Of a DNA stretch of 41,796 nt, positions 16,211 through 38,025 are shown in pieces (position 1 is the stretch's first letter; the number at the start of each line of letters is the position of its first letter). The notes beneath the pieces were generated by a model. It searched no databases. It was not told the origin of the DNA and worked only from the letters and a program-made list of their open reading frames with translations. Source of the DNA: Levilactobacillus bambusae (lineage in GTDB: Bacteria > Bacillota > Bacilli > Lactobacillales > Lactobacillaceae); contig NZ_QCXQ01000003.1 of the NCBI RefSeq assembly GCF_003124125.1, forward strand, positions 95,097 through 136,892. The letters run 5' to 3'. Both the position numbers and the translations under genes were made by a program.

Positions 16211-16599
16211 ACTGTTGTTAAATGATTTGGGTCATGTGCTCTTCTTAAATGCGCTCCCTCAAATCTGACAGTTCCGGTTAAGTTAATACCAAGATAAGCC
16301 CTAACCCGGCTTTTCTTGGCATCCCCTTAATCCTCGCTGTCAAACGATTGGGGTCACGCTCTCTTCCTAAACGCGCTCCCTCAAATCTGACAGTTCCGGT
16401 TAAGTTAATACCAAGATAAGCCCTAACCCGGCTTTTCTTGGCATCCCCTTAATCCTCGCTGTCAAACGATTTGGGTCACGCTCTCTTCTTAAATACGCTC
16501 CCTCAACCTGACCATTCCGGTTAAGCCAGTTTCGAGATAAGCTCCAGAATCGGACTTTTCCCGGAACTTTCTTAATCCTCATGGTCATTCCGGTTGAGG
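16211..16599. repeat. tandem array of family-1 hairpin repeats (A0-A3)
   Basis: Three full units with 121-122 nt period and a right-end fragment (16211-16236) fill the gap between aldo/keto reductase and glycerate kinase. A1 (16258-16353) and A2 (16380-16475) are nearly identical; A3 (16501-16599) is diverged. A2 stems: P1 CTCAAATC/GATTTGGG, P2 TGACAG/CTGTCA, P3 GGTTAAG/CTTAATCC, P4-P5 CCAAGATAAGCC/GGCTTTTCTTGG. A3 stems: P1 CCTCAACC/GGTTGAGG, P2 TGACCA/TGGTCA, P3 as in A2, P4 AGTTTCG/CGGAACT. P1, P2 and P4 differ on both sides yet still pair. The last base touches the TGA stop of glycerate kinase. Confidence 0.85.
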
Positions 16600-17760
16600 T
16601 CACTCTCTATACTTTTCTCCATCGACCTTAATCAATCGGCCGATGTTTTCGGTTGTTCGTTCCAGATTGATGGCGGCATCCTGCATCGCCTTGTCTAGGC
16701 TCATGGCGCCGGGGGTCATGGAAAAGATGGCGTCCACCCCAACGTTGTACAGTTCATCAATTCCATCGCCAATCCCGCCCGTTACAATAATAACGTGGGT
16801 ATCAGGATTTCCCTTATTAGCTTCAATCGCCACGCCCAACGGGGTTTTACCGTACTGGGTTTGATAATCCACCATCCCTTCTCCGGTAAACGTATAGTCA
16901 GCTCCAACTACTTTTTCATCGAGCTTCGCCACCTTCGCTACTAGATCGACGCCACGCACAATGTGGGCGTTCGTAAACGCCATGACGCCACCCGCTAAGC
17001 CACCTGAGGACCCGGACCCCGGCATATCCTTAATATCCTTACCCGTAAACCGCTGTAAAACATCGGCATAGTGGGTTAAATTTTGATCTAGGGTTTCCAC
17101 CATTTCTGGCGTGGCTCCCTTGTTCGGCGCAAACACAGCGCTGGCCCCATATTCACCGACCATTGGGTTGGCGACGTCGGTGGCAATGACAAACTCCACG
17201 TCCGCTAGCCGGGGATCAATGTTGGACATATCAATGGAAACCAAGCCACCTAGGCCACCGCCACCCCGGGGAATCGGATTCCCTTTACTATCCAGGAAGC
17301 GAACGCCCAGAGCTTCAAACATCCCGGCCCCACCGTCATTAGTGGCGCTCCCGCCAATGGCAATGATAATCCGGTTCACGCCCTTATCTAGGGCGTCCTT
17401 CACTAACTGTCCCGTGCCGTAAGTCGTCGTAATCAACGGATTTCGGTCATCATCATTTAAATAACCTAAGCCACTGGCCTCAGCGACCTCAATAATTCCC
17501 GTAAAATAGTGACTGTCTTTAATTAATCCGTAACGGGCACTAATGGTATGCATCAAAGGATCGTTTACTTCGGCCGTAATAAATTCACCGTGACGAGCAT
17601 CGACCAACGATTGAGCGGTTCCCGCGCCGCCATCGGCCATGGGAACCTGAATAAATTCCGCGCTTGGAAAAATACGTGATAAACCGCGTTGCATTGCGGA
17701 AGCTGCTTGTTTGGCAGTCAGTGATCCCTTAAAGGAATCTGGTGCTAAAACAAATTTCAT
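16600..17760 (-). CDS. glycerate kinase (GlxK/GarK type)
   Basis: 386 residues, typical for the family. It phosphorylates glycerate with ATP, feeding it to glycolysis. The N-terminal FVLAPDSFKGSLTA and the GGSATNDGGAGM motif, with a long Gly-rich stretch, match the bacterial glycerate kinase 1 fold. I prefer the ATG at 17760 over a TTG three codons earlier; neither has a strong ribosome site, so translation may be modest. The stop codon abuts the repeat array. Confidence 0.93.
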   Translation of the reverse strand: MKFVLAPDSFKGSLTAKQAASAMQRGLSRIFPSAEFIQVPMADGGAGTAQSLVDARHGEFITAEVNDPLMHTISARYGLIKDSHYFTGIIEVAEASGLGYLNDDDRNPLITTTYGTGQLVKDALDKGVNRIIIAIGGSATNDGGAGMFEALGVRFLDSKGNPIPRGGGGLGGLVSIDMSNIDPRLADVEFVIATDVANPMVGEYGASAVFAPNKGATPEMVETLDQNLTHYADVLQRFTGKDIKDMPGSGSSGGLAGGVMAFTNAHIVRGVDLVAKVAKLDEKVVGADYTFTGEGMVDYQTQYGKTPLGVAIEANKGNPDTHVIIVTGGIGDGIDELYNVGVDAIFSMTPGAMSLDKAMQDAAINLERTTENIGRLIKVDGEKYRE

Positions 17761-17899
17761 GGTTATCAACTCATTTCATTTTTGAATTTCTTATTCCTAT
17801 TGTAAGCCTTTTACTACGGATGAACTAGACCCCTGTTTGTTAATTTATTGACAATTGGTCTATTTTGGTAAATGACAAGCACCATCTTTTAGAAGCTGG

Positions 17900-17905
17900 T
17901 ATAAT
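17900..17905 (+). promoter_or_regulatory. extended -10 promoter element
   Basis: TGGTATAAT, an extended -10, lies 60 nt before the anchored Ser-rich protein. No good -35 lies at the right distance; a TTGACA at 17848 is too far away. Confidence 0.5.
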
Positions 17906-17965
17906 ACAAGATGACGATGAAAAAGAAAATTGATTGCACCACGAACCGGAAACTGGAGGTTTTCT

Positions 17966-18478
17966 ATGAACAACCAACAACCACAACGCTCTAGGGTGCA
18001 GCGTTATAACTTCAATTCCACTCGTCAACAAACTCGCAGGAAACCACGGCGGCCTAAATGGCCCTGGATTCTGACGCTGATTGTACTGGTGGTCTCGCTA
18101 AGTCTTGCCTTGGTAATTCGTATGAACGTAACGGCCAATCGATCTTCCGTTGCCGATAGTTCATCCAGTACAGAAGTTGTTGATTCCCAAACGAGTAGCA
18201 AGCAAGAAGCACAAACATCCTCAACGTCTCAACCGGATTCTTCCCCGACGAGCACGTCCTCGTCTTCTTCGGCTTCATCCTCTACCACACCGTCTAGTTC
18301 ATCCTCATCCACTAAAACGTCGGATTCACAATTTAGTGCAACCCACACTTTTTCATCGGTTAACGACGCCACCAATTGGGCGCGCGCCACAAAGGATGAT
18401 TGGCTAGCAGCTGGTTATAATAATTACACGGTGACGACGGATGCACAAGGAAATTATCTGTTGAAATTTCAACGGTAA
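17966..18478 (+). CDS. membrane-anchored protein with Ser/Thr-rich linker
   Basis: 170 residues from the ATG that follows GGAGG by about 7 nt. A very basic cytoplasmic N-terminus (1-38) precedes one membrane span (about 39-60) beginning WPWILTL. A long low-complexity Ser/Thr linker (about 70-120) follows, then a compact C-terminal domain of about 45 residues with aromatic residues. It is probably bitopic with the C-terminus outside. Function unknown; the small domain might bind cell-wall components, but I recognise no motif. Confidence 0.8.
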   Translation: MNNQQPQRSRVQRYNFNSTRQQTRRKPRRPKWPWILTLIVLVVSLSLALVIRMNVTANRSSVADSSSSTEVVDSQTSSKQEAQTSSTSQPDSSPTSTSSSSSASSSTTPSSSSSSTKTSDSQFSATHTFSSVNDATNWARATKDDWLAAGYNNYTVTTDAQGNYLLKFQR

Positions 18479-18481
18479 TTA

Positions 18482-18530
18482 AACCAAAACAAAAGGGACT
18501 CCCCACTGGGGAGTCCCTTTTGTTTTGGTT
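18482..18530. terminator. bidirectional terminator, 23-bp perfect stem
   Basis: Arms 18482-18504 and 18508-18530 pair perfectly around a 3-nt loop. It separates the convergent anchored protein and ABC transporter genes. Confidence 0.9.
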
Positions 18531-18539
18531 CGTCATCTT

Positions 18540-19211
18540 CTACCTCACCACCGTTTGAAATTCACGGTCGGCCAGTTGAATTTCCACGTCGCACTGTTTT
18601 GCCACCTCGGGTTCATGCGTCACAATAATGACACACTTTCCCTGATCGTGGGCAATGGACTGAAACTGGTTAATCACCGCCTTGGTGTTTTGTTCGTCAA
18701 GGTTCCCGGTCGGTTCATCCGCCACCACTAACGCTGCGTCACAGCACATCGTTCGGGCGATGGCAACCCGTTGCTGCTGTCCCCCGGATAGGTGGGTTAC
18801 ATTACGGTTAAAGTCACCCTTGGGAATCCCAATCTGTTCCAGCATGCGTTTCGCATACTCTTGGTCCCCCCGGTGCTCGGCATTGGTAATAGCCATCGCC
18901 GTCATTAAATTGTTCACGGGTGACATATAGTTAAAGAGGTTGTAAGCCTGAAAAACGATCGAAACATCGCGTCGGCGATAATTCGTCAGACCAATCTTTT
19001 TTAGCGTTTCATTATCATACAAAATTTCTCCGGCCTTCGGATGATCCAGGCCCGCAAGTAGGGAGAGAAAAGTCGTTTTTCCCGTCCCGCTTTGCCCGAC
19101 AATGGCATAGGATTTGCCGGCCTCAAAGGTCAAATTAACATCCTTAAATAACGGTCGTGAACCATTCTCGTACCAGTAAGCCAAGTCCTTTGTTTCTAAC
19201 ATCGTGGTCAT
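18540..19211 (-). CDS. ABC transporter ATP-binding protein (MacB/LolD type)
   Basis: 223 residues. Walker A GQSGTGKTT (about 39-47), signature LSGGQQQR, Walker B LVVADEP with the D-loop GNLD, and the H-loop VTHE are intact. I chose the third in-frame ATG: the first touches AAGGAGG directly, while the chosen one has 6-nt spacing. The ribosome site overlaps the stop codon of the upstream permease gene, so the pair is translationally coupled. It powers the FtsX-type permease. Confidence 0.94.
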   Translation of the reverse strand: MTTMLETKDLAYWYENGSRPLFKDVNLTFEAGKSYAIVGQSGTGKTTFLSLLAGLDHPKAGEILYDNETLKKIGLTNYRRRDVSIVFQAYNLFNYMSPVNNLMTAMAITNAEHRGDQEYAKRMLEQIGIPKGDFNRNVTHLSGGQQQRVAIARTMCCDAALVVADEPTGNLDEQNTKAVINQFQSIAHDQGKCVIIVTHEPEVAKQCDVEIQLADREFQTVVR

Positions 19212-19222
19212 CAGCATCCTCC

Positions 19223-20671
19223 TTAATCGTCAATGAGTACTTTTTTGGGTTCTAACCGCATGATACCTAGGGACCCAATGGCTACGGAGACAAACATGAT
19301 GGATAAACCAAAGCCGCCTAGCTCTGCCATCTCGGTTGCGGTAACGGTGGTTGAGAGCTTAGTCTTAGCCGCCTTTTTCTGGCTGAATCCACCTGATCGT
19401 TGACCGCCCATACCGCCGCTTCGCATCCCGCCAGGTTGTCCGCCACCCTGACCCATTGGCCCGCTCGTTTCAGAGGTCTGACTAGTTTGAGCTTGGGTCA
19501 CAAGCTGCTGGCCTAGTTGATTACCGACGAACTGGCCACCAATCCCAGCAATGGCTAGGGAAACGATTAGCACCATCACTAATTCCGTGAAGAACTGAGC
19601 GGCAATTTTAAAGCGGGACTCTCCGAGGGATAACAAGACCCCGATTTCATACCGGCGTTCCCGAACCATCATGATCACGATGAGCGCGAGAATCACGGTT
19701 CCCGCCGCTGCAACGAGCCAGACAATCTTATTGGCGAATCCGCTAACGGTATTCATGGATTTTTTCACAGTTTGGTAGCTATTATCGTCCGTTGTCAAAC
19801 TGTAAGTTGAGGTGTTAATCAGTTTATCACCGGCCTTTTTCACGGCAGTCGTTTTGGCCGGGTTGCTAATCTTAAAGGTGACCGAATCAGCGGTATCCTT
19901 ATATTTGCTGCCCTTAATGGTGTTGGCAAACGTGTAGGAAGTGTACACGGCATTGGATGGATCACTGCCCATCATGCCCATTCCGCTGGAGGCGCTGGAA
20001 CTGGCCTTGTAAATTCCGACTATTTTCAATTTATAAGTCGTTTTATTGCCAGTGGTTTGTTTAACGGTCATAGTATCCCCGACCGTTAAGTTATCCTGCT
20101 TGGCCAGTTCGCTTTCAATCACAACGTTGTTTGTACCTTCATCAGAAGCCTTAATTCCACGCCCCTTCGTAATTTTACTGGATTTGCTGGTAAAACTGGA
20201 AACGTCAGAAGTTGAAGTGACACCGTTGACCGTCACGTCGCCCGTCGAACTGGAACTGCCGCCCCGCATGCCCATCATCCCGGTACTTGAACTCGTCGTG
20301 CTCACGGTATCGAATGATTTGGCGTCAACGGAGGTCGTTGCTGTCGCATTCATACTGCTAATGTTACCTGAACGCGCAATCTTTTTGGCATCACTCAGTT
20401 TGACGGGAGTCATCGTGATCTTCTTGGGTTTACTGGTGGTCGAACCAGACTGCATTTTCTTGAAGGCCGCTTCCCGGTTCGCCGACAGGGTTAAAGTGGC
20501 GCCTACGCTCTTCTTGGCTTCCGCAGTCGCTTGACTGGCCGCATGGCTGATTAATAGTCCCGCTAACACAAACATCAAGATGGTCGAGGTCACCAGGACT
20601 AAGAGGATGGAGCGCCCCCACTTAGCGGAGAGGGAGAGCCAAGCCCGTTTCACAAAATTCATTTTCAACAT
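19223..20671 (-). CDS. ABC transporter permease (MacB/FtsX type) with Met/Gly-rich loops
   Basis: 482 residues: one N-terminal span (about 20-44), a large extracellular domain (45-310) and three C-terminal spans (about 315-337, 360-382 and 453-472). The FtsX-typical RERRYEIGVLLSLG follows the second span. Unusual Met/Gly/Ser-rich stretches occur in the extracellular parts: GMMGMRGG (131-138), GMGMMG (230-235) and GPMGQGGGQPGGMRSGGMGG (404-423). The start is ATG 4 nt after AAAGG. With its ATPase it probably exports a peptide, drug or metal-related compound, or acts as a mechanotransmission complex; substrate unknown. Confidence 0.9.
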   Translation of the reverse strand: MLKMNFVKRAWLSLSAKWGRSILLVLVTSTILMFVLAGLLISHAASQATAEAKKSVGATLTLSANREAAFKKMQSGSTTSKPKKITMTPVKLSDAKKIARSGNISSMNATATTSVDAKSFDTVSTTSSSTGMMGMRGGSSSSTGDVTVNGVTSTSDVSSFTSKSSKITKGRGIKASDEGTNNVVIESELAKQDNLTVGDTMTVKQTTGNKTTYKLKIVGIYKASSSASSGMGMMGSDPSNAVYTSYTFANTIKGSKYKDTADSVTFKISNPAKTTAVKKAGDKLINTSTYSLTTDDNSYQTVKKSMNTVSGFANKIVWLVAAAGTVILALIVIMMVRERRYEIGVLLSLGESRFKIAAQFFTELVMVLIVSLAIAGIGGQFVGNQLGQQLVTQAQTSQTSETSGPMGQGGGQPGGMRSGGMGGQRSGGFSQKKAAKTKLSTTVTATEMAELGGFGLSIMFVSVAIGSLGIMRLEPKKVLIDD

Positions 20672-20823
20672 CACACCTTTGCTTTTCGATGTTTCAGTTA
20701 TACCATCCCCGCCGCCCCCTAATCTTGTGACCAAGATAAACGTTGGATAAGAAATTCTTAGGATGCTTTTTAAATCGCTAGCTTCGAGGATTAACCTAGG
20801 CAGGCCTCCGCAGATTCAGAAAA

Positions 20824-20852
20824 TTGACTCCGTGTCCATTTACAGCTATTTT
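20824..20852 (+). promoter_or_regulatory. possible promoter of the MFS gene
   Basis: TTGACT, 17 nt, then TATTTT, giving a leader of about 115 nt. The rest of the gap 20672-20972 shows no other clear structure; on the minus strand TATAAC near 20700 may belong to the ABC operon promoter. Confidence 0.4.
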
Positions 20853-20972
20853 TGCAACCATTTTCATAAGCAAAAATCCATTGTTTTCAACGATTGTGTA
20901 TTCATCACAAGCAAATTTTACCGGTTTCAGCATATTCCTTGCTAAACTTTACGTATTAAGGGGGAAGTCGTT

Positions 20973-22181
20973 ATGGATAAGGCAAAAACCAGTTCGCCGT
21001 TATTTAAAACAGCGTTACTGTCCATTTCAATTTTATTAATGATGGGGCCCGTTGTTTCCTCAACCGTCCCATCCATGTCGAAGACCTTAATTGGTCAATC
21101 ACCGTCTGCGGTGGAATCATTAGTTTCCATCCCTAACTTCGGGTTAGTTTTTGGAATTTTTATTGGGAGTTTCTTAGCCCTGCATTGGGGTGCCAAACAG
21201 ACGGTCTTAACCGGGGTGGCCGGCGTCTTTATCTTTGGGATCATGCCGGTGTTTACGGATAGCTACACCGTCCTACTAGTTTCCCGGTTACTGTTAGGGG
21301 TCAGTCTGGGGTTATATAACTCCCTGGCCATCAGTTTAATCTCAGATTTCTACACGGGGGATGAACTCTCGACGATGATGGGGTATCAGAGTGCGGTTCA
21401 ATCACTCGGAAATTCAGCCTTCTCATTCGTGGTGGGTTACCTATTGCTATTCAGTTGGCACGCCGCCTACTGGATTTACGCCATTGCCCTCCCCGTTTTC
21501 TTCCTGTTTGGAGCCGTTGTTCCAATGATCAAACGGCCAACCCAACAAACCCAAACGAAGACGGACAGCGGGCAAACCAGCCAAACCACCCAGAAGGTTA
21601 AGCAACGGGTCAACCTGCCCGTCATCTTGATTTCAATCTTGACGTTCTTCGTCTTTGGCTTTTTCATGGTTTTAACCGTTAAACTGGCAAGTCTCTTTAC
21701 GTCCGAAAATATCGGGACCGCCAGTGAAGCTGCCGGCGTCCTTGGGGGTTACACCCTGTTATCCATGTTCGTTGGTTTTGGATACGGGTGGGTGCATAAG
21801 TTCATGGGCCGCCTTGTCCTGCCAATTGGGATTGGGGTGATGGCCCTCGGCTGCTTTGGGGTTGCCATGTTCCACAGTTTCTGGGGGGTTACCCTCTCCG
21901 TCTTAGTGGTCGGTGCCGGGTACTCCATCGCTAACCCGTACATTTTTACGGAAGTTAACCTGGTTGCGCCAGCTGGTTCAAAGAACTTAGCCTCTTCCGT
22001 GATGCTCGTCTTCTTAAACGTCGGAGTTTTTGTGGGCCCAATCTGGGTCAACTGGGTTGCCGGGTTGTTTGGCAACACCACGCCGGCTGCCGACATGATT
22101 ATCTGTGCGGTTGGGTTGGTCATCCTCACCGGCCTGATTATCTTCATTCAAGCCACCCACAAACAACCAAAACAAGCTTAA
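20973..22181 (+). CDS. MFS transporter
   Basis: 402 residues with 12 predicted membrane spans and a central basic/Gln-Thr-rich cytoplasmic loop (about 185-215), the usual division between two six-span halves. The first-half loop has LALHWGAKQTV in place of the classical motif A, and the RLLLGVSLGLYNS segment is typical of CynX/NimT-like MFS members. Substrate unknown. AAGGGGGA lies about 8 nt upstream of the ATG. It is a single gene, followed by a hairpin-rich gap and divergent in function from the alsSD unit. Confidence 0.88.
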   Translation: MDKAKTSSPLFKTALLSISILLMMGPVVSSTVPSMSKTLIGQSPSAVESLVSIPNFGLVFGIFIGSFLALHWGAKQTVLTGVAGVFIFGIMPVFTDSYTVLLVSRLLLGVSLGLYNSLAISLISDFYTGDELSTMMGYQSAVQSLGNSAFSFVVGYLLLFSWHAAYWIYAIALPVFFLFGAVVPMIKRPTQQTQTKTDSGQTSQTTQKVKQRVNLPVILISILTFFVFGFFMVLTVKLASLFTSENIGTASEAAGVLGGYTLLSMFVGFGYGWVHKFMGRLVLPIGIGVMALGCFGVAMFHSFWGVTLSVLVVGAGYSIANPYIFTEVNLVAPAGSKNLASSVMLVFLNVGVFVGPIWVNWVAGLFGNTTPAADMIICAVGLVILTGLIIFIQATHKQPKQA

Positions 22182-22252
22182 CCATCATCACAATAAGAGG
22201 AGCGGTTTGGGACATTAGGTCCGCTTCGCTAAAAATACGATTCTTGCAACGT

Positions 22253-22293
22253 GGTCCGAAAGCCCTTCATCCTTAACAGGATGCTTTCGGACC
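22253..22293. other. hairpin of unassigned function
   Basis: GGTCCGAAAG pairs with CTTTCGGACC, and inside it CATCC pairs with GGATG around TTAACA. There is no T run on the plus strand. An upstream ATTAGGTCCGC (22215) resembles the right end of family-1 repeats, so this may be a decayed copy. Confidence 0.4.
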
Positions 22294-22302
22294 ATTAGTT
22301 AC

Positions 22303-22412
22303 GGGAAATAAGACAGACCACAACCAAATAGGGACAAGGACCAAATCCGATCAAAGTACAATCGAACCTGGTCCTTGTCCCTATTCGGCATGGTCTAAAC
22401 GTCTTATTTCCC
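22303..22412 (-). repeat. family-2 hairpin repeat, copy 2a
   Basis: Nested perfect stems: GGGAAATAAGAC/GTCTTATTTCCC at the ends, AGACCA/TGGTCT, and a 17-bp stem (22327-22343 with 22369-22385). Read on the minus strand, downstream of alsD by 41 nt, it shares flanks (ATGCCGAATA on the left, TTGTGGTCTGTCTT on the right) and the CGATTG/TTGATCGGATTTGG core with copy 2b. The arms outside the core differ but pair. Confidence 0.8.
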
Positions 22413-22453
22413 AGCCTTTTTATCTCTTATTCTACTCGTGCCGCTTAATTAAA

Positions 22454-23164: not shown

Positions 23165-23177
23165 GAGATCCCTTCCT

Positions 23178-24854: not shown

Positions 24855-24883
24855 CGCAGCGATCCCCTTTTTATTTATCATTA

Positions 24884-24937: not shown

Positions 24938-24979
24938 AATCAGTTAACCTTACCCAAACACTAAACGGAGGAATCAACT

Positions 24980-25408: not shown

Positions 25409-25470
25409 CAAAGCGTCAAACAATCGTCACATTCTTGTGCTACCCTATTTTGGCAAAGGAGCAAACGCCA

Positions 25471-26157: not shown

Positions 26158-26158
26158 A

Positions 26159-27906: not shown

Positions 27907-27938
27907 TTAGCCAAAATAAAGATGGGGTTGGAATACAA

Positions 27939-28030
27939 AACGTTCAGGATATGCCAAATAAAACAAAGGGCCAGATTCGATTGTTTTTGATCGGATTTGG
28001 CCCTTCGTTTTATTTAATTGTGGTCTGTCT
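27939..28030 (+). repeat. family-2 hairpin repeat, copy 2b
   Basis: Flanks ACGTTCAG..ATGCCAAATA (left) and TTGTGGTCTGTCTT (right) match copy 2a. Stem AAATAAAAC-A-AAGGGCCA pairs with TGGCCCTT-C-GTTTTATTT, and GATTCGATTG faces TGATCGGATT. Compared with copy 2a, A-T pairs next to the core are G-C here. It lies 33 nt after a plus-strand stop codon and may act as its terminator. Confidence 0.8.
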
Positions 28031-28150
28031 TTAGTTGGGTTCCACCGCTCAGATCTCTGCGGTTAACCAGGGCATCGAATAATGCCTAAGACCAGCATTT
28101 TTCGATGCCCCAGTTAAACCTCCAGATCTACCGAGCGGTTCCGCACCCTA
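28031..28150 (+). repeat. family-1 hairpin repeat, copy E
   Basis: P1 CCGCTC/GAGCGG, P2 AGATCT/AGATCT, P3 GGTTAAC/GTTAAACC, P4 GGGCATCGAA/TTCGATGCCC, P5 AATGC/GCATT. The conserved right end TTCCGCACCCTA contains, as CTA, the reverse of the TAG stop of the following minus-strand gene. Confidence 0.85.
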
Positions 28151-29266
28151 TCCCCTTAACCACTTAGCCATTTCCCACGCAAAGTCTTCGGCTTGGGCAA
28201 ATAGACCGACGTTGTTTAGGAAGGCGTGGGTCATTCCTGGGTAGTATAGGTAGTGGAGGTCAACCCCAGCCTTCGCTAACTTTTTGGCAAAGGCGTACCC
28301 TTCTTCGTGCAATGGATCAAATTCGTCCGTTACAAGGATGGTCCGGGGCAGGTTAGCCGTGACGTCATCCGGGTAGTTAATTGGCGATACTAACGGATCC
28401 ATCTTATCAATCTTATCGTGAGTATAAGCGGTTCCAATCGTATCAATTAACGTTGTAAAATCACCACTTGCACCTACGGGACCACTTCCGGCACCCTTGG
28501 GGGTTAATTCACGAATTTGTTTGGAATCGATGGTGACCAACGGGTAGAGCAGCGCCTGCTGCTTAGCGTAGCGGGTTTCGCGGTCCATGTACGTAATGGC
28601 AGCCGCAATGTTAGCGCCCGTACTTTCCCCGTACAGGGTAATGTTGGCTGGATCAATGCCTAATTCATCCGCATGTTCTGACAGGTAACGTAGCGACGAG
28701 TAATTTTCACTCGTTGTCGTTTCATAGTCGAATTCTGGTGCGTAATGGAAGTCAACGGCAAATACCTTAACGTGAGCAACTTGAGCTAAGAGATATGAAA
28801 AGCCCTGGGTTAAGTAAATGGAGCCCCCAATAAAGCCGCCCCCGTGAATGTACATAACAGCTGGTAAGGTTTCGTAAGGTGCCGTTAGAACTGGTGTGTA
28901 AGACATCATGCTGACGCCTTCGTCAGTCGTTACCTTTTCGGTCTTAACGTTCGGCGCCATGTTGACACTAACCCCGTTCATCCGTTCCCGCCATGCAAAC
29001 AGCTTCTTTTCCGTATCATTACGTGGGGCCCGCGCAGCTGCTGCCATAGCAGCTGAAGGCTGAGCCTTATAGTCCTTCGGGAACTTATAGTCCTTCTGGT
29101 AATCCTTTAAGACGGGATCTTCTTCGCCGTCTTTTACCTTGGGATCACGTTTCGTTAAAGACAGAACCCCGTTTTCATCCTTTTGGAACTCTTGAATCTT
29201 CGACAATCGAGCTAATTTCTCGTAATACGTTTCTGTACGTGGATATGCATCTGAATTTGTGGACAT
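28148..29266 (-). CDS. alpha/beta hydrolase, HSL/Aes-type esterase
   Basis: 372 residues. A charged N-terminal extension of about 110 residues precedes an HSL-family esterase domain: the oxyanion motif His141-Gly-Gly-Gly-Phe, nucleophile Ser215 in YGESTGA, Asp317 in DEFDPLHEEG and His347 in GMTHAF. Unlike the hydrolase at 3934 this copy has the intact HGGGF. Start: the first ATG touches the AAGGGGG ribosome site, so the ATG three codons later (9-nt spacing) is preferred. No signal peptide. The TAG stop lies inside the family-1 repeat. Confidence 0.9.
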   Translation of the reverse strand: MSTNSDAYPRTETYYEKLARLSKIQEFQKDENGVLSLTKRDPKVKDGEEDPVLKDYQKDYKFPKDYKAQPSAAMAAAARAPRNDTEKKLFAWRERMNGVSVNMAPNVKTEKVTTDEGVSMMSYTPVLTAPYETLPAVMYIHGGGFIGGSIYLTQGFSYLLAQVAHVKVFAVDFHYAPEFDYETTTSENYSSLRYLSEHADELGIDPANITLYGESTGANIAAAITYMDRETRYAKQQALLYPLVTIDSKQIRELTPKGAGSGPVGASGDFTTLIDTIGTAYTHDKIDKMDPLVSPINYPDDVTANLPRTILVTDEFDPLHEEGYAFAKKLAKAGVDLHYLYYPGMTHAFLNNVGLFAQAEDFAWEMAKWLRG

Positions 29267-29395
29267 ACTATCCATCCCCCTTTTTAGCCATTATATCAAG
29301 CTTACATTCAGATTCGTAACAAAAAGCCTTATCCTCCATTTACCGGGAAGGAAGCGCTATAATTAAGGGTATTCTTAGCATTGGAGGTTAACATC

Positions 29396-29905: not shown

Positions 29906-29927
29906 AATTTAAGGAGGTAACTTGCTT

Positions 29928-30869: not shown

Positions 30870-30872
30870 CGG

Positions 30873-31454: not shown

Positions 31455-31473
31455 GGGACCAGTGGGGCAACTC

Positions 31474-31514
31474 AAAAGACCGGTCAAATTCGAAAGAACT
31501 TGGCTGGCCTTTTT
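31474..31514 (+). terminator. intrinsic terminator
   Basis: AAAAG-A-CCGGTCAA pairs with TTGGCTGG-C-CTTTT, with two G-T wobbles and one internal mismatch; ends in T5. Confidence 0.75.
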
Positions 31515-31803
31515 ACGTTAGTGCACGGGATTTATCGATTAGGTCCGCACTATTTTATTCCGGCTCCCCCAATCAGATTTCTGTGGCTAACTACGCAAGA
31601 ACTTAACCGTCAAAGCCCAGACGCTTATGTCCTTGCTAGGTTAGTCCTCAAAATCTACCGATTGGGTCCGCACTATTTTTTTTATTCCGGCTCCCCTAAT
31701 CAAATCCTTCCGCCTAACAAAATCACCCGTAATACCCAAGTGCAGGTATTTCGGGTGATTACGTTAGTGCTCGGGATTTACCGATTAGGTCCGCACTATA
31801 TTT
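31515..31803 (+). repeat. family-1 repeat array (fragment D0, full copies D1 and D2)
   Basis: D0 (31515-31556) is a right-end fragment. D1 (31568-31666): P1 CCCAATC/GATTGGG, P2 AGATTT/AAATCT, P3 GGCTAAC/GTTAGTCC, P4 GCAAG/CTTGC, P5 CGTC/GACG. D2 (31695-31789): P1 CCTAATC/GATTAGG, P2 AAATCC/GGATTT, P3 CTAAC/GTTAG, P4 AATCACCCG/CGGGTGATT, P5 AATACC/GGTATT. Right ends all read GATT(A/G)GGTCCGCACTAT. Between D1 and D2, P1, P2, P4 and P5 change on both arms. The array ends about 15 nt from the stop of the next minus-strand gene. Confidence 0.88.
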
Positions 31804-32133
31804 TTACCTTCCGCCCCCGATTTTAATGGCTGCGGCCTCCAAACGGGATAGGGTGGACTCCGCGTTCGTTTTGAAATCTTCAATAAATGTGGTGCCTTCT
31901 GGTGTAACATGGCCCATATCTTCGCCGTAAATATCCTTGACGACTAGGGCATGGCCCTCATAAACGCCTGTATCGTAGTGCCCGTCCTCCACCTGATCCA
32001 AGAACTGTTGAAAGGCGTCTAGGACTCCCTGCTTAATCACTTCATCCTCCGTCATATCCACCCCGCTGCGTTGTAATTGAACCTGACGCAAAGTGACTTC
32101 ATCCATATCTTGTGGAATTTGAATAATCATCAT
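31804..32133 (-). CDS. small acidic protein of unknown function
   Basis: 109 residues beginning MMIIQIPQDM. The N-terminal 45 residues predict a beta strand followed by helices, a little like the N-termini of antitoxin or ribbon-helix-helix proteins. The rest is acidic with a short helical tail, and I cannot place it. AGGAG lies 5-8 nt before two adjacent ATGs. No toxin-like partner gene is next to it. The stop codon is adjacent to the repeat array. Confidence 0.65.
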   Translation of the reverse strand: MMIIQIPQDMDEVTLRQVQLQRSGVDMTEDEVIKQGVLDAFQQFLDQVEDGHYDTGVYEGHALVVKDIYGEDMGHVTPEGTTFIEDFKTNAESTLSRLEAAAIKIGGGR

Positions 32134-32239
32134 CACCACTCCTCATTCCTGTTTTGCTTCTATAGTATCACGGCAGGAGTTGGTTCTTGCATTATTTTGC
32201 CAAGTAGGTCAGGATTTAGGTAAAAGGAGTTGAGCGCAG

Positions 32240-32887
32240 ATGACAGACGCCATTACAGTTGCACAAGCACAAGAATATGATCATTACACCATGGAGGAGG
32301 TGGGGATTCCCTCCCTCGTCTTAATGGAACGGGCCGCACTAGCTTGCTACCGGGATATTTTAACCGGGCCGTTCGACCTTAGCCGAATTTTAGTGGTTGC
32401 CGGATCGGGTAATAACGGCGGGGACGGGGTTGCGGTCGCTCGATTGCTCCGCATTCATGGTTTAAACGTTAGACTCATGCTGGTTGGTCAACCTGACCAC
32501 GCTACCGAACAAACAAAGCAGCAGTTAAAAATTGCCGCTCACTACCAAACACCCATGACCACGGAAACGGCGGATATTGAACACGCAACCCTCGTTGTCG
32601 ACGGGATCTTCGGGGTTGGACTTTCACGGCCCGTTGAAGGTCACTATGCCACAATTATTCATCAGATTAACGAAGTCGATGCGCCTGTGTTTGCCATTGA
32701 CGTTCCGTCAGGCATTAACGCTGACACAGGTGACGTTTTGGGGGTCGCCTTGACCGCCCGCATGACAACGACCATGGGTTATCGTAAAATAGGCTTTGAA
32801 ACCACGAGCGGCCGACAGCACGTTGGTCAGCTTCACGTTGCCGACATTGGGGTTTACGCACCTTCGCCCCTCATTCCAAGCAAGTAA
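32240..32887 (+). CDS. nnrE: NAD(P)H-hydrate epimerase (YjeF N-domain)
   Basis: 215 residues. It repairs the damaged cofactor by interconverting R- and S-forms of hydrated NAD(P)H. Motifs GSGNNGGDG (55-63), VVDGIFGVGLSRPVEG and AIDVPSGINADTG match the YjeF_N domain. The dehydratase domain that is often fused is absent, so that activity must be encoded elsewhere. AAAGGAG is 10 nt upstream. A large FAD/NAD(P)-binding protein follows after 15 nt, suggesting an operon. Confidence 0.93.
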   Translation: MTDAITVAQAQEYDHYTMEEVGIPSLVLMERAALACYRDILTGPFDLSRILVVAGSGNNGGDGVAVARLLRIHGLNVRLMLVGQPDHATEQTKQQLKIAAHYQTPMTTETADIEHATLVVDGIFGVGLSRPVEGHYATIIHQINEVDAPVFAIDVPSGINADTGDVLGVALTARMTTTMGYRKIGFETTSGRQHVGQLHVADIGVYAPSPLIPSK

Positions 32888-32902
32888 GAAAGGATCTTCC
32901 CC

Positions 32903-34771
32903 ATGCAAATTACCATTATCGGAGCTGGCCCACGCGGCCTATTAGTACTCGAACGGCTGCTTACCTGGCATTCGCCCCACTCAACCGAGTCACTGGAAAT
33001 CACGCTAATGGATGACTTTCCCGTCGGGGGTCATGTTTGGCGGACTGATCAAAACCCGCTGCTTTTGATGAATACCGTTGCACAGGAAATTTCGCTCTTT
33101 GCCGATTCGTCCGTTGAGATGCGGGGCCAATCCGTTACGGGCCCTGATCTCTGCGACTGGGCCCAAAGTCAGGTTGGCCAACGGTACATAGCGACGCATG
33201 ATTTACCAAACCGGGAGACGCTTCAAACCTTCGCCCGCCACCTGGGCAAGAACGACTACGCTCCCCGGGCTTTGTTTGGCGTCTACCTTCAATGGTTCTA
33301 CGAACAGCAGTTAAACCGACAGTCAGACACCGTCACCATTCAGTTTATTCAGGAATCGGTCGTCGAAATTCGGCACGTTGACACCCATGACATCATTAAG
33401 ACGGCTCACCGATCCCTTTTGGCCGACCAAATTATCATGGCCCTTGGTCACTCTGAGAACCGGCCCACGACGGAACAGCGCTCGTTTGCCGACTTTGCTG
33501 AAAGTCACGGTCTGGCCTACTTCCCACCCATGCACCCGGGTGACGCTGATTTTTCCAAACTCACCGATGGTCAAACCGTTATTATGCGCGGATTAGGGCT
33601 AAGTTTCTTTGATTACATTACCCTATTAACGTTGGGCCGGGGAGGGAAATATCAGCAAACGGATCATGAACTCACCTACCAGCCGTCCGGTTACGAACCC
33701 CAAATCATTGCGGGTTCCCGGCGGGGTTTCCCTTACTACCCTAAGGGCGTTAACCAGAAAAAACCGGGGGAGGAATGGCAGTCCCATTTCTTAACGGCCG
33801 AAGCCCTGACTGCCCGTCATATTAGTCGTCCCATGGACTTCACAGCGTTTCAGCACCTCGTCCGCTTAGACGTTGAATTAGTGTATTACCAACTGTTGAT
33901 TAAGCAAAAGTACCCGAAACTCAGTGCCGATCAGTTTAAGCAGGATTACCTTGCTGCGGCCGACCCTGAAACGGTAATTGACCAGGCGCCGTTTAACCCC
34001 GAAGACCGGTGGAACTGGGAGTCAATCATTCAACCGCTGCGAGACGAACCAGCTGGCGTTAACCACCAGCAATTTATTCTTGAACGACTTAACACGTTAA
34101 TTGTCGACGCCAAACTCGGTAACCTAACGGGACCCATCAACGGGGCATTAGATGCCCTCCGGGACTTCCGGAGCGACATTCGGTTCATCGTCGAAAACCA
34201 CTGGTTAACTAACGACGCCTACATTAACGACTTTTTAACCACGTTTGACCAGCTAAACAGCTTCTTAGTGGTCGGGCCGCCACTAGTTCGGATAGAACAG
34301 CTCTGCGCCTTAATGCGCGCGGGTATTGTGACCCTAGCGGATCCCAACATGACGGTTACCATCGCTGACAACCACTTTCAGACTCAGGTGGGAGGTCAAC
34401 CCGTATCAGCCGCAGCGTTAATTGAAAGCCGGCTGCCCCGGATTGACCTCATGGTGAGTCACAATCCGTTGCTGGCCTCCTTAATTTCCCACCACACAGC
34501 GACGCCAGAATTGTTAGCTACCACCACTAATCCGAAGGCCCAAACCCACGCGGTCTTAGTGGATCACGAAACGGACCGGCTCATTGACGCTTACGGCCAC
34601 TCCCTGTCAAATTTCTATTTCTGGGGAATTCCTACCGAGGGCGAGCACTGGATGACTACGACCGCCCCCCGGCCGGACGTTAATGATAGCAACTTCATTA
34701 CGGCCGACCGCATCGCCAGTGAAATTTTGGCCCCTGAAAACCAGGAGAAAGACTTGGATGAACTAGTTTAA
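32903..34771 (+). CDS. FAD/NAD(P)-binding protein (NAD_binding_9 type)
   Basis: 622 residues, the usual length for this family. The N-terminal Rossmann motif IIGAGPRGLLVLERL (5-19) and the later GHVWRTDQNPLLLMNT match the FAD-NAD(P)-binding (NAD_binding_9) group, a broad set of poorly studied flavoproteins. A second GxGxxx-type segment is seen near VIMRGLGLSFFD. No membrane span. The ribosome site is AAAGGA. Directly behind nnrE; cofactor repair and a flavin/NAD enzyme together are suggestive but do not prove a joint role. Confidence 0.85.
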   Translation: MQITIIGAGPRGLLVLERLLTWHSPHSTESLEITLMDDFPVGGHVWRTDQNPLLLMNTVAQEISLFADSSVEMRGQSVTGPDLCDWAQSQVGQRYIATHDLPNRETLQTFARHLGKNDYAPRALFGVYLQWFYEQQLNRQSDTVTIQFIQESVVEIRHVDTHDIIKTAHRSLLADQIIMALGHSENRPTTEQRSFADFAESHGLAYFPPMHPGDADFSKLTDGQTVIMRGLGLSFFDYITLLTLGRGGKYQQTDHELTYQPSGYEPQIIAGSRRGFPYYPKGVNQKKPGEEWQSHFLTAEALTARHISRPMDFTAFQHLVRLDVELVYYQLLIKQKYPKLSADQFKQDYLAAADPETVIDQAPFNPEDRWNWESIIQPLRDEPAGVNHQQFILERLNTLIVDAKLGNLTGPINGALDALRDFRSDIRFIVENHWLTNDAYINDFLTTFDQLNSFLVVGPPLVRIEQLCALMRAGIVTLADPNMTVTIADNHFQTQVGGQPVSAAALIESRLPRIDLMVSHNPLLASLISHHTATPELLATTTNPKAQTHAVLVDHETDRLIDAYGHSLSNFYFWGIPTEGEHWMTTTAPRPDVNDSNFITADRIASEILAPENQEKDLDELV

Positions 34772-34782
34772 GATATACGTTA

Positions 34783-34828
34783 AAATCCCCACCACCAAAC
34801 AGCATTGCGTTTGATGGCGGGGATTTTT
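34783..34828 (+). terminator. intrinsic terminator
   Basis: AAATCCCC-A-CCA-C-CAAAC pairs with GTTTG-A-TGG-C-GGGGATTT (two mismatches), then TTTGT. It ends the nnrE unit. Confidence 0.85.
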
Positions 34829-34888
34829 GTGTTAATAACTTAATTTTTATTGGGGTTGAATAAGTTTCACACCCTTTAGTCAGGTTCC

Positions 34889-35060
34889 ACTTCTCAACTT
34901 CCTGCGGTTAACCAAGTTCCCCAGTAATACTAAAACCCAGTATTTTCGGTGAACTCCGTTAATCCTCAGAAGTAAGCGAGAAGTTTCACACCCTCAGTCG
35001 GGTTCCACTTCTCAACTTCTTGCGGTTAACCCTAGAACTCCCGAGTGATTCCACACCCTA
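34889..35060 (+). repeat. family-1 repeat, full copy C and truncated copy G
   Basis: C (34889-34984): P1 ACTTCTC/GAGAAGT, P2 ACTTC/GAAGT, P3 GGTTAAC/GTTAATCC, P4 AGTTC/GAACT, P5 AATACT/AGTATT. G (35007-35058) keeps the left side through GGTTAACC and the right end ATTCCACACCC but lacks P4-P5, as if deleted. The right end CACACCCTA overlaps the TAG stop of the minus-strand DUF1835-like gene, as in copy E. Confidence 0.85.
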
Positions 35061-35879
35061 ATTTTGCGTGACCCGTTTGACTTCCGCATCGGCCACGTCA
35101 CGTTCATCGCCAACGTATTCGATCATCTGGTTAGCCACTAGGGTGTCAATCCGGCTTAAATACCACCACAGCGGCATCCCGCCTGGACCAGCTTCAATGG
35201 TGAGTTCAACGACGGCACTGAGTTTTGTCGGGGTGTCCTGCACGCTAGCGTAAACAAATTGGTCATAAAAACTGTCCGCCACACTAATGATCACTCCGTT
35301 AACGTTCACCCGTAACGGGGCATTTTCAGCCACTAAGACGTCCCAAATATGCTTAATATCCCGCAGCGTTAACCCATTAACGGAGGTGACGTTATTAATT
35401 TGGTTCACGAGTTCATCCAGGGACATATCGCCAATGGTATTCCGTTTGTAAACACCCATTAATTTCATGGCGTGCCGGGTAACGTTGACCGTAAAGACTT
35501 CACCGGCCATATTGCCAGCTAACCGGGCGCATAACCAGTAGTAACCGCAAAGATCACTCGGATCATTACTAATCCACACCCGGAGCGACCGGCCATCATC
35601 AATGGCATCGTCTAAGTGGCCCAGCTGGCTAATCATATCATCGCCCGTGGGTGCATCAGGATTAAACTTCCGCCGGGTATCCCAGATGGCTTGCCGGGTC
35701 TCGGTATCATCCACGTGGCTAATGTCTCCAACGTCTAAGGCCAGATCCAACTCTAAAACTTCATCGTGGTCGTCGTCGCTTAAATCATGGAAGGTTGTCA
35801 GCGTGGTGGCCAATGCGTGGTCAAACGTGATATCTAAAAATGACGCCTCTGCATTCTCCAAGATCATTCCCCTTTTCAT
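35058..35879 (-). CDS. DUF1835/DUF3658-like protein
   Basis: 273 residues, acidic and soluble. Residues about 95-120 (LRVWISNDPSDLCGYYWLC) resemble the conserved centre of DUF1835. The C-terminal part (about 165-265), with LTLRDIKHIWDVLVAENAPLR cut into helices, resembles DUF3658. Function of either domain is unknown to me. The ATG at 35879 has AGGG 7 nt upstream; a second ATG four codons later lies too close to a GGGG run. A weakly supported family call. Confidence 0.65.
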   Translation of the reverse strand: MKRGMILENAEASFLDITFDHALATTLTTFHDLSDDDHDEVLELDLALDVGDISHVDDTETRQAIWDTRRKFNPDAPTGDDMISQLGHLDDAIDDGRSLRVWISNDPSDLCGYYWLCARLAGNMAGEVFTVNVTRHAMKLMGVYKRNTIGDMSLDELVNQINNVTSVNGLTLRDIKHIWDVLVAENAPLRVNVNGVIISVADSFYDQFVYASVQDTPTKLSAVVELTIEAGPGGMPLWWYLSRIDTLVANQMIEYVGDERDVADAEVKRVTQN

Positions 35880-35931
35880 CGTTTACCCTAATTTTCTGTT
35901 ATCTCGTTTAGAACTGCAAGCTTAACGACTT

Positions 35932-36576
35932 CTAGTGGGTTGCTTCGCCAGCCCGGTAACGGACAAAGCTTTTATCCGGCACCCGAATCAGTGTGAAGCG
36001 ATCGGCTAAGCGGCCGGCATGAAGGCCAATCCCGTTTTGCCAGGTCTTTTTATAGGTGGTATCAACCGTCCCAACCCAGGCTCGCTGGTGGCGTTTGTCA
36101 TTTTCCTTAACCTTTTTATCGTCCCACTGATACCGGGACGCCGAAATATTAATGGCGTTCTTGCCGCTCGAGATGGTGGCGTTCGGGCTTGCAATCCGGT
36201 ACCGTTCGCCATCCGTATAGTAGCTATAGAACTGAACGGGAGAACTTCCCGTCGTGTTTTTTACCGAGACGTAGTACGAAGCTCCTGAACTCGTGGTATT
36301 GACCACTAACGGGTGGTAGGTCGTGGTGACCGTCACTTGACTAGCGTTTAAATCGTGCGGGTTTTGGAAGAACGTTGTCTTGCCCATCCCATAGGCCGCT
36401 ACGAGAAAGACGATCAATTCAACGGTGGAAATCCCAAGGTTACGCCACGAAAAGCTCTTTCGCTCCTGAACAATCAGTTTTAACCGGCGAACCCGCATAT
36501 TATGAATCATCCAAATTAGGTAAATCAGAAGAATTAGCCACAGGGCCATTCCCACTAAATTCCATGCTGATTTCAT
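35932..36576 (-). CDS. membrane protein with extracellular C-domain, unknown
   Basis: 214 residues. Two spans (about 7-26 and 47-64) are separated by a short basic cytoplasmic loop, so the C-terminal 150 residues are outside. That domain is rich in Tyr, Ser and Thr and predicts beta strands. Family not recognised; probably a Lactobacillaceae envelope protein. GAAGGG lies about 9 nt before the ATG. It is divergent from the NlpC/P60 gene. Confidence 0.75.
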   Translation of the reverse strand: MKSAWNLVGMALWLILLIYLIWMIHNMRVRRLKLIVQERKSFSWRNLGISTVELIVFLVAAYGMGKTTFFQNPHDLNASQVTVTTTYHPLVVNTTSSGASYYVSVKNTTGSSPVQFYSYYTDGERYRIASPNATISSGKNAINISASRYQWDDKKVKENDKRHQRAWVGTVDTTYKKTWQNGIGLHAGRLADRFTLIRVPDKSFVRYRAGEATH

Positions 36577-36805
36577 CTGTTACACCCTTCCCTCAATTAC
36601 AATGGTGATTATTTTCCTATAATAAGGGTACGTGATTAAGTTTCGAAATACAAGCCAAACTCAATTCCAGCGGCCGGCATTTTGTCAAAACCCAGTTGAA
36701 ATAACAAACGGTCAGTAAATCGACAACTATCTGAGATATTTCTGTAACACTAAGCTGATATGATAGAACCATTGGAAAAAATACATATTACTCAGGGGAT
36801 GTCTT

Positions 36806-37282
36806 TTGGATATGAAACGTTTGTGGATTAAGCTCGTATTAATGGTGGCCGTTATGTTTGGGGTTACGGCCAGTTTGCCGATGGGGCACACGAATTCAGC
36901 CCAGGCCGCCACTATCAAAGCCAGCAAGGTTGTCTCAAAAGCGAAAAGCCTGCGGGGAACCCGTTACCGTTGGGGTGGGACAACTCCCGCCGGATTTGAC
37001 TGTTCTGGATTTACCAAGTACGTCTACAAAAAGGCAGCTAAAAAAACCTTACCCCGGACCGCACAGGCCCAATACAACCATTACCAACACGTTTCAGCCA
37101 AACACCTGAAAAAGGGCGACCTAGTTTTCTTTGGCGGTAACAAGCGATCCATCAGCCACGTTGGCCTTTACGTCGGCAACGGCCAAATGATCGACGCCCA
37201 AAGCCGCGGGGTCGTTACCGAGTCCATCCATGCACCATGGTGGCACGCCGTTGGCTATGCCCGCGTTGCCAACTTAAAGTAA
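36806..37282 (+). CDS. secreted NlpC/P60 peptidoglycan hydrolase
   Basis: 158 residues: signal peptide (about 4-34, cleavage after Ala-Gln-Ala) and one NlpC/P60 domain, a gamma-D-glutamyl-diamino-acid endopeptidase fold. Catalytic Cys66 in FDCSGF and His118 in SHVGLY are present. The third residue is Asp130 (MIDAQS) rather than the His common in the family. No separate wall-binding domain. The TTG start has ideal 7-nt spacing from AGGGG; the ATG two codons later has 13. The promoter has an extended -10 (TGATATGAT, 36756). Confidence 0.92.
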   Translation: MDMKRLWIKLVLMVAVMFGVTASLPMGHTNSAQAATIKASKVVSKAKSLRGTRYRWGGTTPAGFDCSGFTKYVYKKAAKKTLPRTAQAQYNHYQHVSAKHLKKGDLVFFGGNKRSISHVGLYVGNGQMIDAQSRGVVTESIHAPWWHAVGYARVANLK

Positions 37283-37334
37283 ACCGCACCCTAGTGTTTG
37301 ATCACCGGGGACTTTCTGAGGGGATGACAAATAA

Positions 37335-37730
37335 ATGAAGAAATGGTACCGCCTGGGTTTTAGCAGCCTGCTAATCCTTGTGACCGGGCTTATCTTTTTA
37401 ATGGGCCCCGCTGCCATTGCCCACGGCCAAATGCAGCCGGAGCCAATCCACCAGCAGGCCTTTCATAGGGCCCACAAAGACCAACTCATTGTAACACCGG
37501 ATGGGCGGCTGATTTCACCGAAGGATCAACACGAACAACCCCAAAAACTTGACGTTAAAAAGCCCCAAGCCAGACCCAAAGTCGTGACTGAATCCTACAT
37601 CCCGAAGAATAACTGGCAGTTAGTCGATCTATCAACGGGCGCCTATACATGGCCCGTTCAGGTCGCTCTCTATACCTTTGTCATTGCCACCATCAGTTTG
37701 GTCGCGTGGATTTTGTACCGGGTAGGTTAG
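37335..37730 (+). CDS. small surface protein with C-terminal membrane span
   Basis: 131 residues: signal peptide or N-terminal span (about 8-28), a polar and His/Gln-rich extracellular stretch, and a C-terminal span (about 108-128). Function unknown and family not recognised. GAGGGG lies 11 nt before the ATG. It follows the NlpC/P60 gene by 52 nt without a clear terminator, so co-expression is possible. A family-2 repeat follows. Confidence 0.7.
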   Translation: MKKWYRLGFSSLLILVTGLIFLMGPAAIAHGQMQPEPIHQQAFHRAHKDQLIVTPDGRLISPKDQHEQPQKLDVKKPQARPKVVTESYIPKNNWQLVDLSTGAYTWPVQVALYTFVIATISLVAWILYRVG

Positions 37731-37754
37731 CCGACTTACTGCAAGACTTGACCA

Positions 37755-37856
37755 TCAAAAAAACATTCAGAGTATTCCCAATATGGATGACGCCCAAATT
37801 CGATTGCACGATAATCGAATTTGGGCGTCACCCTTTTTAGTTGTGAGTCGACTTTA
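37755..37856 (+). repeat. family-2 hairpin repeat, copy 2c
   Basis: Left flank ACATTCAGAGTATTCCCAATA matches copies 2a and 2b in spacing and many bases (written here in part: CCCAATA). Perfect 18-bp stem 37788-37805 with 37813-37830, then CCCTTTTTA, so it can terminate. The right flank TTGTGAGTCGACTT resembles TTGTGGTCTGTCTT of the others. The lower stem sequence (TGACGCC/GGCGTCA) is unrelated to that of 2a and 2b. Confidence 0.75.
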
Positions 37857-37874
37857 GGTAGTACCGTTATTCCT

Positions 37875-38025
37875 TAAGATCTACCGAGCGGCTCCACACC
37901 CTTTTAGTTGGGTTCCACCGCTCAGGTCTCTACGGTTAACCAAGTCATCGGATAATGCCCAAACCCAGCATTTTCCGATGACTCAGTTAATCCTCCAGAT
38001 CTACCGAGCAGCTCCACACCCTTTT
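37875..38025 (+). repeat. family-1 repeat, fragment F and full copy B
   Basis: F (37875-37901) is a right-end fragment reading AGATCTACCGAGCGG and CTCCACACCC. B: P1 CCGCTC/GAGCAG (one mismatch), P2 AGGTCT/AGATCT, P3 GGTTAAC/GTTAATCC, P4 AGTCATCGG/CCGATGACT, P5 AATGC/GCATT. It directly follows a family-2 copy, as at 27939-28150. Here the right end does not meet a stop codon. The remaining gap to 38186 holds only the next promoter. Confidence 0.85.

Follow-up and report, generated by a model that had tools for sequence, protein, structure and literature searches.

We examined a 41,796-nucleotide (nt) stretch of the Levilactobacillus bambusae genome (contig NZ_QCXQ01000003.1, positions 95,097 to 136,892), called the window throughout, which holds at five loci copies of a repeat of about 115 nt that folds into one long hairpin. 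An original prediction, made from the letters of the window alone, had placed seven full copies and several fragments at these loci, each with nested helices P1 to P5 of which P3 was the most conserved. The five loci and the layout, including the conserved P3, held up when the copies were read. The copy number did not, since a model scan found eight full copies with scores of 97 to 119 bits, the model having been built from the same eight copies so that they match by construction. What the prediction had missed was the strand of the repeat, its docking at gene 3' ends and its host range.

The minus strand is the sense strand for every window copy, full or partial. The largest array (16250..16607) consists of three full copies at 16250-16361, 16372-16483, and 16494-16607, and is preceded by a glycerate kinase gene (16600-17769, minus strand) whose TGA stop lies within the first copy. 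A single full copy at 28035..28148 begins with a G that also closes the TAG stop of an alpha/beta hydrolase gene (28148-29275, minus strand). The two full copies of the array at 31559..31798 (31559-31675 and 31686-31798) follow the stop of an open reading frame (ORF; 31804-32139, minus strand) after a gap of 5 nt, and at the 3' end of this array stands a half copy made of the sense 5' arm (about 31515..31556, placed partly by eye). At the fourth locus, a copy without its apical half (34998..35058, 22.2 bits) opens on the final G of the TAG stop that ends a DUF1835/DUF3658 gene (35058-35879, minus strand), and is accompanied by a full copy at 34880..34993 and by a short remnant of another that was recognized by eye (about 34862..34874). 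The fifth locus has a full copy at 37908..38021, adjoined by another half copy of the sense 5' arm (about 37866..37905). The model scan also gave an antisense shadow of one window copy and a weak match at 12784-12838 (E 0.017) that is probably due to chance.

The fold and the strand that carries it

The fold was assessed with RNAalifold on a MAFFT alignment of the eight full window copies, an alignment that is blind to structure. Thirty-five pairs were obtained, 26 of them with changes on both sides that keep the pair. Paired cells made up 94.3% of the total, compared with 69.2% in 500 column shuffles, the covariation score was 0.746 compared with 0.237, and none of the 500 shuffles reached the observed value on any of five measures. 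Column shuffles lose the relatedness among the copies, but a control that keeps it, in which the pairing partners were slid by 1 to 3 columns, scored far lower, with covariation falling to 0.05 to 0.14. The predicted pattern, stems that change on both arms and still pair, was borne out by these controls, and covariation persisted when more copies were aligned, a check that had been proposed with the prediction. In two larger alignments, both fitted to the model and leaning towards its structure as the MAFFT alignment does not, both-side changes occurred in 34 of 37 pairs (53 rows from relatives) and in 36 of 41 pairs (76 distinct rows from loci found by pattern, with 847 such cells against 241 after shuffling and 96.5% of cells paired against 68.2%). 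The loci of the 76-row set were found with an exact pattern fixing parts of the outermost helix, the loops, and P3, and conservation in those parts is uninformative.

In the relatives, the earlier layout extends beyond P1 into an outer helix, P0 (GNGY with RCNC). The sense strand opens with GAGNGY, which forms P0 by pairing with RCNCGT, and continues through an internal loop (GGA/GGA), a 7-bp P1, a one-sided bulge such as GGTTA, and a 6- to 7-bp P2. The apical part comprises an asymmetric loop (TGAG against GCAG), P3 (TTAAC/GTTAA) with a bulged A, P4, P5, and the terminal loop. Conservation is highest in the unpaired bases and in P3, and the remaining stems vary most. Nearly all full matches measure about 110 to 123 nt. 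Most copies in the source genome have ends reading GGGTG and CCCGAC, and in several distant genomes the ends read AAAAGCGGA and GGAGCTGGACA with loops of the same kind. Judged by eye, P0 compensates between lineages, with GTGY, GAGC, GCGC, and GGGC forms that each have a matching partner.

The two strands are not equivalent. In all eight full window copies the minus strand folds better (for example, -65.2 versus -52.8 kcal/mol for the copy at 28 kb), and G-U pairs exceed A-C mismatches in the stems by 91 to 35 in 72 rows from the source genome and by 96 to 16 in 48 rows from relatives, a total of 187 to 51. An A-C mismatch on one strand is a G-T on the other, and with the excess of G-U it follows that the sense strand is the strand kept paired, as RNA or as one strand of DNA. 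The fold of the repeat is kept across the family on its sense strand, as RNA or single-stranded DNA. The prediction had ascribed the structure to selection acting on RNA or folded DNA; covariation and the G-U bias uphold this for the family, but it is not proven copy by copy.

Host range and placement at gene 3' ends

The repeat is abundant in the source genome, where 75 matches were obtained with 150 of 392 first-look candidates scored. The 256.7 kb fetched around the matches gave 84 matches, 72 of them non-overlapping, in 41 arrays of one to four copies; the 72 include two weak ones, at E 0.084 and at E 0.39, the latter being probably a chance match and one of the 41 arrays. Another 383.8 kb elsewhere in the genome gave no match at an E of 0.01 or less. 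Searching the host and other Lactobacillaceae with a model, as had been suggested with the prediction, recovered copies in both. All of these copy numbers and match rates are lower bounds, because scoring was limited to those 150 candidates in the source genome and to 37 or 12 candidates for each genome searched more widely. At an E of 1e-4 or less, at least 45 of 99 genomes match, made up of at least 33 of 36 in the genus (the source genome among them), at least 11 of 24 from other genera of the family, and at least 1 of 39 from the rest of the order. A model from the relatives matched at least 10 of 299 genomes in a sample of the class at an E of 1e-7 or less, the source genome again included, and five of the others had nine or more matches. 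A pattern scan of named genomes found 55 stretches, in Levilactobacillus, Lapidilactobacillus, Pediococcus, Paucilactobacillus suebicus, and records of Lactobacillus sp.

Copies on contigs C10 and C36 of the source genome are clustered, and on C10 the arrays lie mainly at 133 to 758 kb. The GC skew of that contig turns positive between segments at 699 to 705 kb and at 719.6 kb, and five matches resembling DnaA boxes occur at 719.6 to 739.3 kb. The copy-dense part of the genome may lie towards the replication origin.

The placement of the repeat is a new point: its 5' end tends to dock, in sense, on the 3' boundary of a gene. Genes were called with a simple longest-ORF script, antisense overlaps and matches shorter than 90 nt were dropped from the counts of stops and T-runs, and each species contributed its own count where a locus is orthologous in several. 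Of the 41 arrays of the source genome, one of which is the probable chance match, 33 have a sense gene on their 5' side and none lies between divergent genes. A start at a sense stop codon (-20 to +12) was found for 19 of 39 arrays of the source genome and for 31 of 64 arrays of the named genomes, where sliding and flipping each element at random within its own interval gave 4.7 ± 1.9 and 4.5 ± 1.8, respectively, with a maximum of 11 in 500 trials. The mirror arrangement, an antisense stop at the 3' end, occurred in 0 of 39 and 1 of 64 arrays. Within the window, a stop is found at the start of the copies at four of the five loci (16600, 28148, 31804, and 35058).

Pooling relatives from three alignments, without duplicates and without copies having less than 60 nt of upstream sequence, gave 184 arrays, of which 79 start at a stop codon, 51 behind a run of T, and 54 at neither. 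Among the 79, the first base is shared with the last base of the stop in 19, the gap is 0 to 12 nt in 59, and in one the stop lies 13 nt further on. The gap to the T-run is 5 to 9 nt in 42 of the 51, and 46 of these 51 arrays have a hairpin of -6 kcal/mol or better before the T-run, compared with 133 of 300 random 36-mers. The mirrored test on the 184 arrays gave 1 stop and 19 T-runs, and a T-run was present 100 nt further upstream in 7 of 183. The T-run class is nearly absent from the source genome (1 of 39 arrays). The 54 arrays that fit neither class include 13 at the stop of a short ORF, 4 behind a remnant of the element, and 1 that follows a tRNA-Arg by 9 nt. In a distant genome (G238), two copies (L198 and L203) start 5 nt behind the end of the 23S rRNA, before the 5S, in two rRNA operons.

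History of the copies and how they may have spread

Orthologous gene ends differ in whether they carry the repeat. For glycerate kinase, a model scan covered all 30 loci taken from 34 matches, with 19 of the 30 also read as sequence, and outside the source genome 3 of 29 (G007, G009, and G033) carry the element at the stop, in each case, by eye, between the stop and a terminator-like hairpin. Genome G032 has a deletion remnant, and in G002 about 140 nt separate the stop from the copy that follows it. At the alaS stop, an array was seen only in the sister genomes G001 and G008 among the 30 loci read of 36, a reading made by eye on the 240 nt behind each stop. In these two genomes the last Asp codon, present in most of the others, is gone, and gain of the array would be the simpler account. 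The AlaS of the source genome (contig C36) is itself an outlier in the genus, being 69% identical to the query, compared with 87 to 100% in the other 35 genomes. At another gene end compared by eye in six genomes, the copy looks intact in G001 and G018, is reduced to a remnant in G008 and G015, and is missing from G024 and G011. A DNA search for one element-bearing gene of 619 amino acids gave no match in five relatives. Such comparisons suggest that sites are gained and inherited, and that apical deletion leads to their loss.

The sister genomes G001 and G008 were compared further on the part of their loci that was fetched. Twenty-six of 47 G001 arrays could be matched to a fetched G008 array; the upstream flanks of these pairs are 87 to 99% identical, except for one pair at 76%. 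At 13 loci with a single copy in both, 105 pairs differ, of which 53 changed on both sides and still pair, 28 changed on one side and still pair, and 24 are broken. Seventeen comparisons in ten orthologous groups found by pattern, which are not independent, gave 56, 41, and 13, respectively; a random single change keeps the pair in 18% of cases. Several of the loci in 11 G001/G008 alignments have P1/P2 or P4 swapped on both arms while the flanks hardly differ, and copying from another copy of the repeat would explain these block changes better than many separate compensations. Such block exchange weakens the case for selection in place on each copy, not that for selection on the fold of the family.

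Other modules accompany the repeat. A second hairpin repeat, about 105 nt long and having conserved ends and a variable but matching central stem, occurs in the window at 27926-28031 (sense on the plus strand), at 22310-22416 (sense on the minus strand), and, in a diverged form seen by eye, at about 37733-37850, where it has a sub-threshold Rfam match to MIR6459 (E 0.0006; 33 bits of the 100 needed). At eight places it comes after the first repeat, on the flank that faces the next gene. At the eight loci carrying the further modules (L042, L047, L048, L051, L055, L056, L062, and L066), a third conserved module stands about 100 nt before the first copy, between the upstream sequence and the repeat array, making a three-module composite. 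Closely similar composites at eight sites of the source genome speak for dispersal, as does the array at the alaS stop in the two sister genomes. Elsewhere in the window, a perfect 24-nt inverted repeat with a 1-nt gap (18482-18530) is perhaps a terminator.

We give about an even chance to the reading that the repeat is a non-autonomous mobile family, recognized by its fold, that targets the 3' ends of transcription units and then resides in the 3' untranslated region (UTR). On this account, dispersed chromosomal repeats of about 115 nt, each folding on the sense strand into one long, ornate hairpin, would have spread as a non-autonomous mobile sequence whose fold is recognized as RNA or single-stranded DNA. 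The choice of target would be tied to the ends of transcription units as marked by a stop codon, a terminator-like T-run and, singly, the end of a tRNA or a 23S rRNA. Copies behind stop codons would ride in the 3' UTR as a harmless or a structured tail of the messenger RNA (mRNA), and arms would be exchanged between copies. Copies do occur in tandem, and some of them decay by apical deletion. In a bolder form of the idea, which we put forward tentatively and think improbable as a whole, an RNA or single-stranded DNA element, parasitic or domesticated and present across the Bacilli, picks its targets where transcripts end and not by DNA sequence. It would enter in sense at or just behind the third base of a stop, a few bases behind terminators, and at the 3' ends of tRNA and rRNA, a target rule that would aim at RNA 3' ends or at stalled termination complexes. 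To our knowledge, no other mobile element selects its targets in this way.

Several observations weigh against a mobile family of this kind. No gene of 70 amino acids or more ends in sense at the window copy 37908-38021, an exception to the placement rule, and the 54 unassigned arrays of the relatives include 36 that fit no rule at all, and 18 of 39 arrays in the source genome are likewise unassigned, 8 of these following another repeat module. The 19 T-runs in the mirrored test mean that the T-run class is partly background. Four of the six genomes compared at one gene end share intact or decayed copies, so the insertion there is old. Matching flanks, as a target-site duplication of fixed length would leave, are in modest excess in two of three sets, at best 8 versus 3.8 expected (68 copies) and 6 versus 1.3 (48 copies), and number at most 2 in the third (74 copies), the shifts differing; a few arrays, by eye, repeat the upstream flank as a spacer. 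The source genome (G000) gave no match to Y1_Tnp and none to RVT_1, the latter being present in 6 of 25 genomes tested. No match was found in plasmids (4 queries), phages (2 queries), or viral contigs (1 pattern), blastn with single copies being a weak probe for an element this variable.

The alternative that survives best, which we regard as possible but doubtful, is a 3' UTR element that benefits its host, in which the hairpin would tune the lifetime of the mRNA, either as a barrier to 3' exonucleases or as a site for RNase III, with spread being incidental. Copies are sense-stranded and proximal to stops, and they precede the terminator in the three loci read. One-side changes that keep the pair outnumber those that break it, by 41 to 13 in the 17 non-independent comparisons and by 28 to 24 at the 13 loci, against the 18% kept by chance. 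Transcripts bearing bcr3 in Bacillus cereus were reported to be longer lived, a link that the authors call hard to interpret (PMC3446304). However, the 51 of 184 arrays behind a T-run would lie outside the main mRNA if the T-run is the terminator, few orthologous loci carry a copy at the stop (3 of 29 for glycerate kinase and 2 of 30 for alaS), and an exchange of arms in blocks can look like selection acting in place.

Insertion at RNA 3' ends, by a reverse transcriptase that copies the RNA of the element and then switches to the 3' end of a second RNA to give a sense fusion, is unlikely. It predicts the sense orientation and the kinds of docking site seen (stops trimmed by ribosomes, terminators, tRNA, and rRNA), and it fits the narrow gaps to stops (59 of 79 at 0 to 12 nt, plus the 19 at the third stop base) and to T-runs (42 of 51). 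However, RVT_1 is absent from G000, G001, and G008, which carry dozens of copies, and the mechanism needs a step integrating the complementary DNA that was not seen here; a retroelement served by a resident reverse transcriptase was rejected for the source genome on the same lack of RVT_1.

Repeats that act as a cruciform or a gyrase site at transcript ends have a model in BIME, and a DNA-level element of this type would agree with the 34 of 41 arrays in the source genome that have a gene reading towards their 3' side. The one-stranded wobbles, the conserved unpaired loop bases, and the sense polarity make it very unlikely. Slightly more doubtful still is mobility of the IS200/IS605 or REP/RAYT type, driven by a Y1 transposase. 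A folded single strand with unpaired recognition bases matches that style, but Y1_Tnp is missing from G000, G012, G037, G054, G238, and G289, all with copies, and is found both in 8 of 14 carriers and in 4 of the 10 genomes that have at most one weak match to the repeat. Least probable of all is the absence of selection, with the paired changes arising from quasi-palindrome correction or copy-to-copy conversion alone, as the block changes on both arms between sister species might suggest, since such correction should erase the asymmetric bulges, yet these are the most conserved part, the G-U bias is one-stranded, and covariation spans genera.

If a mobile family recognized by its fold is the right account, a sizeable share of the intergenic sequence in Levilactobacillus and scattered Bacilli would belong to one undescribed structured family. 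About 40 bp, mostly covarying, together with conserved noncanonical loops, would then offer a natural substrate for finding a new protein that binds RNA or single-stranded DNA, and the docking on stops and terminators would let the targeting of transcript ends by an element be tested directly. Copies also alter the 3' ends of core genes, such as alaS in two species.

Comparison with known repeat families

The prediction had named no known family, and this agrees with Rfam 15 and with the literature searched. At gathering scores, Rfam 15 had no match in the window and, at 14 distant loci, 17 matches of which none lay over the element; with E up to 1 in window positions 15900 to 38300, a single chance-level match fell on a copy (mir-1266, E 0.41). 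The literature searched gave no description of the repeat family, and searches with short strings of the element returned only papers on other subjects.

An intrinsic terminator was rejected as no T-run directly follows the hairpin, relatives commonly having TTC and then G or A and copies in the source genome CTAAA. The attC sites of integrons are imperfect hairpins behind stop codons in which structure is kept over sequence and bases are extrahelical, all of which resembles the present repeat, and they obey a rule of an invariant AAC/GTT core in R boxes at the hairpin ends. In our repeat, by contrast, the AAC/GTT core is not invariant, being broken in rows L075, L088, L089, and others, and it belongs to P3 inside the hairpin; no cassette arrays were seen, and attC was rejected. 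RUP and Correia carry fixed terminal inverted repeats and a target duplication, whereas the terminal helix of the present repeat covaries and no clear target duplication was found. A classical miniature inverted-repeat transposable element (MITE) was likewise rejected by its ends, P0 varying with compensation and no fixed terminal inverted repeats being present. The likeness to RUP, Correia, and CIR elements lies in their being non-autonomous repeats of about 100 to 155 nt (PMC2229807).

Repeats of similar style are known from other Firmicutes. The stem-loop families Efa-1 (163 nt, Enterococcus faecalis) and Sta-1 (105 nt, Staphylococcus aureus) of Cozzuto et al. 2008 (PMC2267715) are also intergenic hairpin families; one of them may prove to be a relative, and Sta-1 could be a staphylococcal one. 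The bcr1 to bcr18 repeats of B. cereus are intergenic elements of 100 to 400 nt, some with a conserved RNA fold, often in UTRs and some MITE-like, with mobility tied to a TTTAT motif (PMC3446304, PMC6542083), and are described as confined to the B. cereus group (PMC6542083). Set against those descriptions, the ends of the present repeat showed no TTTAT motif. ERIC, too, is a single long hairpin (PMC2267715).

The present repeat shares with REP/BIME and ERIC an intergenic location, a hairpin, many copies, proximity to gene 3' ends, and tandem combinations. Those families are the intergenic hairpin repeats of enterobacteria, whereas ours is found in Bacilli, has no link to Y1, and docks its 5' end in sense on a stop or a T-run. 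Its fold is also much larger and more ornate than that of REP, and REP/RAYT was rejected because the source genome is without a Y1 transposase and the element lies far above the 20- to 40-nt palindrome size. In how it works, the repeat is probably closest to structured intergenic repeats such as REP, ERIC, and bcr, and it is filed with that kind, though not within those families. The best reading is that it represents a new family of structured, probably non-autonomous repeats, kept by selection as a folded RNA or single DNA strand and inserted at the 3' ends of genes.

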